Program-made: the position numbers and the translations under genes
In this document: in pieces, positions 38,665-49,227 of the stretch
Numbering within the stretch: the stretch's first letter is position 1
How the letters are laid out: each line of letters begins with the position of its first letter
The notes under the pieces: generated by a model
Database searches by the model: none
Told to the model about the DNA's origin: nothing
Seen by the model: only the letters and a program-made list of their open reading frames with translations
Assembly: GCF_900128895.1 (NCBI RefSeq)
Contig: NZ_FSQW01000002.1
Coordinates: 868,001-932,000 of the forward strand
Length of the DNA: 64,000 nucleotides
Reading direction: 5' to 3'
From: Parasphingorhabdus marina DSM 22363
GTDB taxonomy: Bacteria > Pseudomonadota > Alphaproteobacteria > Sphingomonadales > Sphingomonadaceae

Positions 38665-39801
38665 TCAGGCCTTTTCGTCAGCCGCCTTGGCATCTTCCTT
38701 TTTGGCCGCGGCCTTTTTCGCCGGAGCTTTCTTGGCAGGTGCCTTCTTGGCAGCCGGCTTTTTCGCCGGAGCTTTTTTGGCAGCCGCTTTCTTGGCAGGA
38801 GCCTTTTTCGCAGCAGCCTTTTTGGCGGGCTTTTCTTCCGCCTTGGCTTCGTCTTCTGCAGGCGCTTCTTCCTTGGCAGGCTCCACTTCGACCTTGGCCT
38901 CTTCCTTTGCCGGCGCTTCTTCGGCTGGCGCTTCTTCTGCCTTGGGTGCCTCAGCCGGAGCTTCTTCTGTCGGCTTCTCGGCAGCCTTCTCGGCAATGTC
39001 CGCAACCGCGGCTTCTTCGCCGCTGGCCATGGCACTGGCATTCGCCTCGCTGGAGACAATCTGTTCGACCGGCGGTGCAACAGCAGCGCCAAGATCTTCC
39101 CCGGATGCGACAGCAGCTTCCTGACCACCCTTGGTGGCAGCAGCAGCTACAGATTCGCAGTAGAGACGGATCGCGCGTGCCGCATCGTCATTGCCCGGTA
39201 CCGGGAATGCAATGTTGGTCGGATCGACATTGGAGTCGAGGATCGCGACAACCGGAATGCCAAGCACATTGGCTTCCTTGATCGCGAGTTCTTCCTTGTT
39301 GGCGTCGATCACGAACATCACGTCAGGAATTCCGCCCATGTCCCGGATACCGCCAAGCGACAATTCCAGCTTGTCCCGTTCCCGAGTCATCTGCAGGACT
39401 TCTTTCTTGGTGAAGCCGGCGGTGTCGCCGCTCAGCTGTTCCTCAAGTGTTTTCATCCGGCGAATCGAGTTGGAAATGGTTTTCCAGTTGGTCAGCATGC
39501 CGCCGAGCCAGCGATGGTTGACAAAATGCTGGCCACTGACGCGGGCAGCTTCTGCAATCGGTTCCTGCGCCTGGCGCTTGGTTCCGACAAAAAGGACCTT
39601 GCCACCGGCCGCAACCGAATTGGCAATAAAGTCGAGAGCGCGCGCGAAAAGCGGAACGCTCTGGGACAGGTCGAGAATATGGACACCGTTACGGGCTCCG
39701 AAGATGTATGGTTTCATCTTGGGGTTCCAGCGGTGGGTCTGGTGGCCGAAATGGGATCCGGCTTCAATCAATTGCTGTAGGGTGACGACAGGGGCCGCCA
39801 T
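38665..39801 (-). CDS. rpsB: 30S ribosomal protein S2 with long charged C-terminal extension
   Basis: A 378-residue product. Residues 1 to about 235 are ordinary S2 ([53 protein letters not shown]). From about 250 on there is an Ala/Glu-rich acidic stretch, then about 50 residues of AKKAP-type lysine/alanine repeats resembling histone H1-like tails. The start is ATG 39799-39801 with AAGGAG seven bases upstream. The tail is in frame, has no stop and shows the same repeat to the last codon, so it is genuine coding sequence. Its function is unknown. Confidence 0.96.
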
Positions 39802-40015
39802 AGTCTTTCTCCTTCCGGTTATGCCTCTGGAAAGCTGAGAACCTCGGTCGACCTGAAAGGGCGGCGTTGGCACCGGTATGTGTGCTTTCCATGTGGAATG
39901 AGCGTGCCGTTAAAGCGGCGCGCCGCGGAATGCAAGCCCAAAGCGGCAAATAATGTAACCTTTTCCCGATTCTGGCGAATTTTGGATGTGAGTTGACAAT
40001 AACGGTTGACAAAAA

Positions 40016-40052
40016 GAACATAATTAGAACATTATGCGTTCATAGAAAGAAC
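40016..40052 (+). promoter_or_regulatory. LexA-type operator array upstream of small membrane protein gene
   Basis: Four half-sites occur every 11 bp: GAAC 40016-40019, GAAC 40027-40030, GTTC 40038-40041, GAAC 40049-40052, each separated by exactly seven bases. The first pair is the alphaproteobacterial LexA box GAAC-N7-GAAC, the same arrangement as upstream of recA in this window. Two TTGACA hexamers lie just upstream (39993-39998 and 40006-40011), so the array overlaps where the -10 region would be. It ends 15 bp before the ATG at 40068. Confidence 0.75.
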
Positions 40053-40067
40053 ATACAGGAATTCGCC

Positions 40068-40322
40068 ATGCTGACATTTGCCATCACGACTCTCTTTGTC
40101 CTCTCCTTTTTCGGGGCTCTTTCGGTGATCGGATATATGTTTGCCACCTATCGCGGCAAGATCGCATCGGTGATTCGGCAGGAACTGCAGCTGCCCTCCC
40201 CCGAACCACTATCTGGTGAATCAGTTCGGACATTCCGTGTTAGGTCTACCCGCATCACTGGCACAGCTATCAGGCCGCAGCGTCATTCCCGTCGGCCTGC
40301 TCCGCTCGCCGCTGCCGCTTGA
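40068..40322 (+). CDS. Small single-pass membrane protein, candidate SOS-induced
   Basis: An 84-residue protein I do not recognise as a named family. Residues about 2-24 form one hydrophobic helix (LTFAITTLFVLSFFGALSVI), then a short basic segment, a proline-containing middle and an arginine-rich C-terminus. The start is ATG 40068 with AGGA seven bases upstream; the frame is open upstream through the operator and is ignored there. It sits directly behind the LexA-like operator array. Its last 53 bases overlap the 3' end of pssA on the other strand. A role as SOS-induced division inhibitor, by analogy to SulA or Caulobacter SidA, is only an inference. Confidence 0.65.
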   Translation: MLTFAITTLFVLSFFGALSVIGYMFATYRGKIASVIRQELQLPSPEPLSGESVRTFRVRSTRITGTAIRPQRHSRRPAPLAAAA

Positions 40323-41064
40323 CTCTTGCATAGCTTCTGATGCTGAACGGGATCAGGACAATATAGCCGATACTGATTGCGCAGAGCGTGATCCAGGGAT
40401 TGTTGAGCAGGGCCACGCCCAGCAAGGCAAAAAGCGCCAGAGCTTCGAGGCGGATATTCTTGCGCAGACGCAGTGATGACCAGCTGTAGGTCGCCGTGTT
40501 GGAAATCATCAGAAAGGCGATGATCACGATCCAGGGGGCGACCAGAGCATAATGCCGGAACAGTTCCTGCCCGGTCACCATCCACAGATACAGCGGTAGC
40601 ATGACCAACCCTGCACCAACCGGCGCCGGGATCCCGGTCAGAAAACCAGCGGATTTGTGCGGCTGGTCTTCATCGTCAATCTGGGCATTGAACCGCGCAA
40701 GTCGCAGAGCACATCCCACGGCCATGGTCAGTGTCAGCACCCAGCCGAACTGCGGCATATGCTGTGTTGACCAGAAAAACATGACGAGAGCCGGCGCCAC
40801 ACCGAAGGCAATAACATCGGCAAGAGAATCGAGCTCCGCGCCAAAACGGCTTTGCGCATTGAGCAGACGGGCTATTCTACCGTCCAGACCGTCCAGAATA
40901 CCGGCGAGCACGATCGCGCCCGCGGCAAGGACCCAGTTTTCCAGATAGGCAAACCGCACGCCGCTAAGCCCCACGCTCAGCGCCAAGGCGGTCACCGCAT
41001 TCGGAATGAACTGCCTCAGAGAGATACCGCGTTCGGGCCTCCTGCCAGTACCGGGACCGTTCAT
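40270..41064 (-). CDS. pssA: CDP-diacylglycerol-serine O-phosphatidyltransferase
   Basis: A 264-residue inner-membrane CDP-alcohol phosphatidyltransferase. The family motif D-G-x2-A-R-x8-G-x3-D-x3-D is complete (DGLDGRIARL through AELDSLAD, about residues 62-87). It has about seven hydrophobic helices. It makes phosphatidylserine for the psd gene just upstream (37 bp gap), giving phosphatidylethanolamine. Confidence 0.96.
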   Translation of the reverse strand: MNGPGTGRRPERGISLRQFIPNAVTALALSVGLSGVRFAYLENWVLAAGAIVLAGILDGLDGRIARLLNAQSRFGAELDSLADVIAFGVAPALVMFFWSTQHMPQFGWVLTLTMAVGCALRLARFNAQIDDEDQPHKSAGFLTGIPAPVGAGLVMLPLYLWMVTGQELFRHYALVAPWIVIIAFLMISNTATYSWSSLRLRKNIRLEALALFALLGVALLNNPWITLCAISIGYIVLIPFSIRSYARVKRQRRAEQADGNDAAA

Positions 41065-48054: not shown

Positions 48055-49137
48055 TTAGCTGTTGTCTTCGGATTCGCTGCCGACAGGTCCGGTCATCATC
48101 TCTTCGGCCACTTCTTCTTCCTTGCCGCGGATCTGACCTTCCAGCTTGGCCATCATTTCCGGGTTTTCGAGCAGGAAGCGTTTTGAATTTTCGCGTCCTT
48201 GCCCGATCCGTACGGAGTCATAGGAGAACCAGGCTCCCGACTTTTCGACCACACCGGCCTTCACGCCCAGGTCGATAATCTCGCCGACCTTGGAAATGCC
48301 CTGGCCGTACATGATGTCAAACTCGACCTGCTTGAACGGAGGCGCAACCTTGTTCTTGACCACTTTCACCCGGGTGGAGTTGCCGACAATCTCGTCACGC
48401 TCCTTGATCTGGCCGGTCCGCCGGATATCCAGCCGTACCGATGCATAGAATTTCAGGGCGTTGCCACCGGACGTGGTTTCGGGATTGCCATACATGACAC
48501 CGATTTTCATCCGCACCTGGTTGATGAAGATCACCATGCATTTGGAGCGGCTGATCGAACCGGTCAGCTTGCGCAGCGCCTGACTCATCAGCCGGGCCTG
48601 CAGACCGACATGGGCGTCACCCATTTCACCCTCGATCTCCGCCCGCGGGACCAGAGCCGCGACCGAATCCACCACGAGAATGTCAATCGCATTGGACCGC
48701 ACCAGCGTGTCGGTGATTTCCAGGGCCTGTTCACCGGTATCCGGCTGCGAGACGATCAGTTCGTCAATATCCACGCCCAAGGCTTTGGCGTAAACCGGAT
48801 CAAGGGCATGTTCCGCATCAACAAAGGCAGCGGTTCCGCCGGCTTTCTGCGCTTCGGCAATGGCGTGCAGCGCCAGTGTTGTTTTACCCGAACTTTCCGG
48901 TCCGTAAATTTCAATGACACGACCCTTGGGCAGTCCCCCGATGCCCAGTGCGATGTCGAGCCCGAGAGAGCCGGTGGAAATGGCTTCCACTTCCATTGCC
49001 TGTTTCGAGCCCAGCTTCATTGCCGAGCCCTTGCCAAAGGCACGATCAATCTGTGCCAGGGCTGCGTCGAGCGCCTTCTGTCTGTCTGATGAGTTCAATT
49101 GATTTTCCGATTCCACGACTTTTAAATTGCCGGCCAT
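48055..49137 (-). CDS. recA: Recombinase RecA
   Basis: A 360-residue DNA strand-exchange ATPase that also stimulates LexA self-cleavage. Walker A is GPESSGKTT (about residue 77), Walker B is in [11 protein letters not shown], and [11 protein letters not shown] plus [18 protein letters not shown] follow. The acidic C-terminus is usual. The start is ATG 49135-49137 with a purine-rich AGGGGACAGG upstream; the frame is open 14 codons further but that part is leader. A LexA box lies about 75 bp upstream. Confidence 0.98.
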
Positions 49138-49212
49138 TTGCCTGTCCCCTTCGCTAAATGCTTGTACGATATCAATCAATGATGGAAATGATGTACCGCA
49201 TTTGTTCTACCA

Positions 49213-49227
49213 GAACAAGAGGGGAAC
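49213..49227 (-). promoter_or_regulatory. LexA (SOS) box upstream of recA
   Basis: GAAC 49213-49216 and GAAC 49224-49227 are separated by exactly seven bases (GTTC-N7-GTTC on the recA strand), the alphaproteobacterial LexA consensus. A further GTTC at 49204-49207 makes an overlapping GTTC-N5-GAAC dyad. Confidence 0.85.

Follow-up and report, generated by a model that had tools for sequence, protein, structure and literature searches.

A candidate SOS checkpoint gene of Sphingomonadaceae: a small single-pass membrane protein behind a LexA half-site array in Parasphingorhabdus marina

P0001 of Parasphingorhabdus marina DSM 22363 is an 84-residue reading frame preceded by four regularly spaced copies of a short motif, and the locus raises the question of whether LexA controls a genuine small membrane protein here and, if so, what that protein does. 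It lies in a stretch of 64,000 nucleotides, hereafter the window. An earlier note on this DNA had described four half-sites, GAAC-N7-GAAC-N7-GTTC-N7-GAAC, at exact 11-bp steps, placed behind TTGACA and 15 bp ahead of the ATG of the 84-residue frame; reading the window confirmed the array at 40016-40052 and bore out its place relative to TTGACA and the ATG at 40068. The features of the locus are the following.

38665..39801, minus strand: rpsB, divergent neighbour, named from its sequence; the same neighbour is found in relatives
39993..39998, plus strand: upstream TTGACA hexamer; this second hexamer was not seen in the other genus members printed
40006..40011, plus strand: TTGACA, likely -35 element, with an 18-nt spacer to CATTAT (10/12 match)
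40016..40019, plus strand: LexA half-site 1 (GAAC), exact in 29/29 genus homologues
40027..40030, plus strand: LexA half-site 2 (GAAC), exact in 29/29 genus homologues
40030..40035, plus strand: CATTAT, likely -10 element, from a promoter scan (weak evidence alone)
40038..40041, plus strand: half-site 3 (GTTC, inverted); all four half-sites are exact in 24/29 genus homologues
40049..40052, plus strand: half-site 4 (GAAC), exact in 29/29 genus homologues
40057..40060, plus strand: AGGA, likely ribosome-binding site, 7 nt ahead of the ATG, read from the sequence
40068..40322, plus strand: P0001, 84-residue single-pass membrane protein, SOS-controlled by comparison; stop codon at 40320-40322
40077..40142, plus strand: approximate transmembrane segment, residues 4-25, with a charge-free stretch before the helix
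40270..40322: 53-bp antiparallel 3' overlap with pssA (40270-41064, minus strand)
40314..40319, plus strand: C-terminal Ala-Ala, candidate ClpXP degron, from the counts of such ends in relatives
49213..49227, minus strand: single LexA box of recA (48055-49138, minus strand), for reference

A single promoter-like match, TTGACA-18 nt-CATTAT, is present upstream of P0001, where shuffled sequence gives 0.6 expected. Half-sites 1 and 2 form the direct-repeat box GAACATAATTAGAAC, which lies inside the -35/-10 spacer; with the promoter at 40006-40035, half-sites 3 and 4 would fall around the transcription start. A stem-loop formed by half-sites 3 and 4 in the leader was rejected, its folding being no better than that of shuffles (z -0.27). 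Taken singly, the first GAAC-N7-GAAC pair is close to chance in frequency and not significant (five matches in the 64 kb of the window against 1.94 expected, with 6 of 100 shuffles reaching five), and comparison across genomes was therefore used instead. The four-half-site pattern occurs in 5 of 199 family genomes, with one match in each and none for a backwards control, and three of the five matches belong to the P0001-type gene. At loci L031 and L032, from two other genera, a four-half-site array lies ahead of a different, oppositely read gene of at least 284 residues (in the L032 reading) that is without a Pfam match and is possibly a second LexA-controlled gene there.

Within the genus, the gene is present in 30 of 32 genomes, and the remaining two could not be judged (in G004 the contig ends 57 bp short of the locus, and in G021 rpsB was not found). 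Searches recovered a homologue in 28 of the 31 other genus genomes, with E values from 1.9e-12 to 3.5e-5. The homologue of G022 was recognized by position; it has 84 residues, an ATG 52 bp behind the box, the ending RVAA, and all four half-sites. With G022 included, all 30 genus genes have exact copies of half-sites 1, 2, and 4, and 25 of them have an exact half-site 3. The distance from box to ATG is 52 bp in 28 of 29 genus homologues and 53 bp in one, and TTGACA stands 2-5 nt ahead of half-site 1 in all 29. These proteins are only 35-48% identical to P0001, and the conservation of the array despite this divergence is what decides that the observation is real. Two loci, L030 and L090, were set aside as false matches.

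Several findings identify the box as that of LexA. One gene with a LexA helix-turn-helix was found in the P. marina genome, and GTTC-N7-GTTC adjoins the start at 30 of 30 genus lexA loci scanned, that of P. marina (L062) included. The Caulobacter LexA consensus, given as GTTC-N7-GTTC in the consulted part of PMC12700426, matches the box here. The earlier note had likened the first pair of the array to the arrangement at recA, 9 kb away; the same direct-repeat box is indeed present there, as GAACAAGAGGGGAAC, but as a single repeat and not as an array. Elsewhere in the P. marina genome, boxes of this type stand ahead of rmuC and of a gene for a UvrD-type helicase. In other genomes, the TTGAC-box pattern also retrieves lexA (nine loci), uvrA (three), and ssb (one), as recognized by eye among the 44 of 55 places read. 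Genome-wide, the GAAC-N7-GAAC pair is only weakly enriched in P. marina (92 matches; backwards control, 64), so that most single pairs are probably chance. Among 15 other boxes hand-picked from the 92, possible SOS neighbours were seen at four (rmuC, the UvrD-type helicase, a radA-like/patatin pair, and a radical-SAM gene) and nothing was recognized at 11. At L281 and L282 (C1 near 685164 and 992989), boxes lie before the radical-SAM gene and between the radA-like and patatin-like genes. We consider it very probable, from the sequence comparison, that the P0001 gene is under LexA control, and binding of LexA to the inverted pairs of the array (GAAC-N7-GTTC and GTTC-N7-GAAC) is a possible, putative addition.

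The distribution of the gene beyond the genus was followed by profile and by position. A profile of genus members only matched 15 of 296 order genomes in 8 genera, the own genus and one false match being counted; with 12 more distant members added and a limit of E 0.05, it had matches in 119 of 397 family genomes, representing 40 of 96 genera, those of lowest score being doubtful. At the 92 profile loci judged outside the genus, an exact box was found within 300 bp upstream in 85, a place beside rpsB/pssA in 84, and both in 78. This count keeps the false match L169 as a miss and leaves out L105 and L111 (short flank) and L186-L191 (weak matches), and further weak and second profile matches were not among the judged loci; L188, L189, and L190, left out, do have the box and the Ala-Ala end. 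Of 87 profile-match loci with a box, L188 and L189 among them, 74 have TTGAC no more than 16 nt from the box.

The region of rpsB was scanned in 59 genomes (57 of other genera outside the profile matches, together with G022 and G004), and those with pssA within 1500 bp gave 43 intervals. The exact box is present in 41 of these, against 1.8% expected from first-order resampling, a one-helix ORF of up to 140 residues in all 43, and an ORF ending in Ala-Ala in 38. By the same rule the opposite strand yielded six ORFs (one at a stricter threshold), none ending in Ala-Ala, and resampled intervals held a one-helix ORF in 7% (1% at the stricter threshold), again none with this end. The ORF in the L261 interval has 52 residues, another frame phase, and the ending AVRR, and may not be a family member. 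Two loci outside the 43 intervals, L200 and L214, have a box and an ORF beside rpsB. The TTGAC-gap-box pattern recovered the gene in 9 of 12 tested genomes, with a different upstream neighbour and still converging on pssA; seven of the nine end in Ala-Ala, and L329 and L334, which do not, are in another phase. The pattern gave no gene in L206, L217, and L277. Four of the 59 genomes scanned at rpsB gave no gene; L253 was outside the 12 that were pattern-tested, and G004 (L250) is cut by its contig end.

The profile and interval genes together represent 69 genera, 68 of them with an exact LexA-type box and 63 with the box and Ala-Ala in one gene. An exact box is absent in 9 of the 135 genes, namely seven profile genes, of which five have a box with one mismatch and L181 and the false match L169 have none, and two interval genes, L195 and L267. 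The expectation that homologues in related genomes are preceded by a LexA box was thus checked and held (in 85 of the 92 profile loci judged beyond the genus and in 41 of 43 intervals), and with the boxes at lexA, recA, rmuC, and the helicase gene it gives strong comparative support to the view of the earlier note that the locus encodes a single-helix membrane protein controlled by LexA. Outside the genus, 105 of 126 box-bearing profile and interval genes have a single box, which makes the four-site array a genus-level elaboration. Tight or cooperative repression through nested boxes, also suggested earlier, is possible in the genus but, given the single boxes elsewhere, not central to the system as a whole. 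The spread through the family, the conserved Ala-Ala end, the predicted N-out/C-in topology, and the 3' overlap with pssA go beyond that note.

In genus g77 (L157, L166, L171, L176, and L177), the box ahead of the small gene is reversed, GTTC-N7-GTTC. In L116, two profile matches about 600 bp apart (G138:C1:2190346-2190540 and 2190950-2191135) are perhaps a tandem copy. Scanning 700 bp of sequence ahead of rpsB (423 bp in L222) in 27 genomes from the order's other families revealed no box, and pssA was not seen next to rpsB in any of them; L229 and L242 have a hydrophobic ORF at rpsB, without a box. In 14 other-family genomes, 20 of 22 places with the box pattern were read and no one-helix gene of the P0001 kind was seen, the genes named by eye at these 20 places including lexA (seven), uvrA (two), and ssb (one). 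At the search sensitivity used, the gene looks like an invention of Sphingomonadaceae.

The reading frame itself is real and under selection at the protein level, since variation over the first 43 codons of 29 homologues is biased to the third position (0.246/0.194/0.400 for the three codon positions). The median length of the gene set is 80 residues, with the helix beginning near residue 4. Lysine and arginine are absent ahead of the helix in 157 of 164 genes, and the region behind it averages 9.7 K+R against 3.6 D+E. By the positive-inside rule, together with the lack of charge before the helix, the tail is predicted to be cytoplasmic and the protein to have an N-out/C-in topology. The helix of the aligned genus members contains no charged residue. 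Conservation over residues 4-38 is helix-periodic in five of seven clades, with its maximum at 96-102 degrees per residue and a shuffle p of at most 0.04. In the genus, where the period is 96 degrees, none of 5000 shuffles did as well, and the four further clades have p 0.007, 0.010, 0.040, and 0.007; the periodicity is not significant in the other two (g69, p 0.14; g2, p 0.28). The genus-invariant residues F10, I21, M24, Y28, I32, and V35, with the adjoining F25, share one face of the helix, and this is likely a docking face. The tail is Arg-rich and variable, its sequence being hardly kept between genera.

What the tail does keep is its end. Ala-Ala terminates 150 of 164 genes (29/29 in the genus, 83/92 profile, and 38/43 interval), the 14 without it including the false match L169; among complete ORFs of at least 200 residues the background is 27 of 743 for the retrieved loci and 4 of 48 for the window. 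The tmRNA tag of P. marina is ANDNEALAVAA, ending AVAA, and the terminal Ala-Ala is described in the consulted part of PMC7652416 as the element of the ssrA tag that matters most to ClpXP. The gene overlaps pssA antiparallel at its 3' end in 139 of 151 genes where pssA was found, with the same frame phase in 137 of the 139 pairs and in seven of the nine genes with another upstream neighbour, and Ala-Ala could thus be an antisense shadow of pssA. This was rejected on the strength of 12 profile genes that lie near pssA but clear of it and 13 genes whose retrieved sequence contains no pssA. Of these 25 genes, 23 still end in Ala-Ala; the box is also present in 23. Ala-Ala is probably a protease tag that leads to turnover by ClpXP.

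Comparison with databases gave no named relative. The single P0001 sequence had no match in Pfam or NCBIfam, and a 21-member alignment had no significant match, only weak single-member ones, in Pfam, NCBIfam, and PHROGs and no match in the PDB. No Pfam match to a LysM domain was seen for P0001 or the alignment, and profile searches of Pfam, NCBIfam, PHROGs, and the PDB found no similarity to known division inhibitors. Among the open-licence PMC papers listed for alphaproteobacterial LexA, sphingomonads, SidA, and Zymomonas, none was seen to describe an SOS division inhibitor of Sphingomonadaceae.

Control by the LexA box, the membrane topology, and the conserved tail are supported by comparison, and from these we infer damage induction, a partner, a block of division, and proteolysis. 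In the mechanism we propose, LexA bound to the box or boxes in the -35/-10 spacer and the start region would silence a strong sigma-70-type promoter, which would open once DNA damage leads to RecA-stimulated cleavage of LexA. The product would insert into the inner membrane as an N-out/C-in single-pass protein, and its conserved helix face would dock on a partner in the membrane, the septal cell-wall synthase complex, with FtsW or the proteins associated with it, being the likeliest candidate, and so halt constriction in the fashion of SidA and YneA. ClpXP would take the Ala-Ala end of the cytoplasmic Arg-rich tail, so that the brake would lift soon after LexA returns. A reversible checkpoint needs such a combination of LexA control, a single helix that has a docking face, and a tag favouring quick removal. 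By analogy with the known inhibitors, we lean slightly towards P0001 being an inhibitor of division, and hold with about the same reserve the whole explanation as a Sphingomonadaceae SOS checkpoint gene whose N-out/C-in, SidA/YneA-like product is cleared by ClpXP. A point against the likeness to YneA is that YneA needs a periplasmic LysM domain, while almost nothing of P0001 is predicted outside the membrane.

Other readings account for part of these observations. P0001 could be a membrane-anchored adaptor or regulator of PssA or of an envelope sensor or repair complex rather than of division; the predicted cytoplasmic Arg-rich tail and the single conserved helix face would suit such a role, for which HigX, an SOS-induced membrane-associated envelope regulator in Caulobacter according to the consulted part of PMC13384398, is a precedent. 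Pfam and NCBIfam recognized no DNA-binding or other domain, however, and the tail sequence hardly persists between genera, so we regard this as unlikely. Somewhat less likely again is a toxin like TisB or DinQ, induced by the SOS response, which would depolarize the membrane through its helix and produce dormant survivors. The protein is small and hydrophobic, with an N-terminal helix, control by a LexA box, and in the genus several half-sites, as such a toxin might be. TisB-type toxins have an amphipathic charged helix and an antitoxin RNA, whereas the aligned genus helices are free of charge, and a variable Arg-rich tail with a conserved Ala-Ala end is not expected of a pore peptide. The conserved place of the gene also speaks against a toxin.

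The overlap with pssA suggests a further possibility, that SOS-driven convergent transcription into the pssA-psd 3' end lowers phospholipid synthesis and the ORF is secondary. The frequency and constant phase of the overlap agree with this, as does the convergence on pssA of all nine genes with another upstream neighbour; the 25 genes without overlap or pssA nevertheless mostly keep box and Ala-Ala, and the codon-position pattern is that of selection on a protein, which leaves this reading improbable. A chance motif ahead of a spurious ORF, for which the near-chance frequency of the lone pair in the window could be cited, is practically negligible given the conservation in 69 genera, the interval and opposite-strand controls, and the codon pattern. 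The checkpoint we favour has a more far-reaching version, to which we give only a small chance: an undescribed, family-wide checkpoint whose drifting product is held only by a LexA box, one helix face, and an Ala-Ala tag, and in which the overlap with pssA would couple the SOS pulse to a drop in phospholipid synthesis. In that version, a single gene of 80 residues would encode both the onset and the lifting of the brake.

The P0001 gene is a concrete candidate, consisting of one gene and present in 69 genera, that rapid drift conceals from homology searches but that can be found by promoter, position, and tail. Two testable questions follow: do one-helix proteins of convergent origin strike FtsW-type targets, and can a checkpoint carry its own ClpXP off-switch?

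SOS division inhibitors are unrelated between lineages, as stated in the consulted part of PMC4211646. SidA, a 29-residue SOS division inhibitor of Caulobacter crescentus that acts on FtsW (PMC4211646, in part), resembles P0001 as a LexA-controlled tiny inner-membrane protein of an alphaproteobacterium; P0001 differs in its 84 residues, predicted cytoplasmic Arg-rich tail, and Ala-Ala end, and in that its gene occurs family-wide at a kept place. YneA (Bacillus), SosA (Staphylococcus), and ChiZ (Mycobacterium) are small membrane proteins, induced by the SOS response, that inhibit division; P0001 resembles them, by sequence and comparison, as a predicted LexA-controlled single-pass membrane protein. 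The helix of YneA docks on FtsW, and models from the same work, whose confidence is not high, point to such docking for SidA, SosA, and ChiZ as well (PMC13396833, in part). For recovery YneA is degraded by the proteases YlbL and CtpA (PMC6051672, in part); it carries an outward LysM domain, whereas the tail of P0001 is predicted inside and its candidate protease is ClpXP. With ssrA-like ClpXP substrates P0001 shares the terminal Ala-Ala, as a candidate for degradation only. DidA of Caulobacter, with 71 residues, one helix, and FtsN as its target, is close in size and single helix and is damage-induced (PMC4211646, in part); it is DriD-dependent and SOS-independent, whereas the P0001 gene has LexA boxes.
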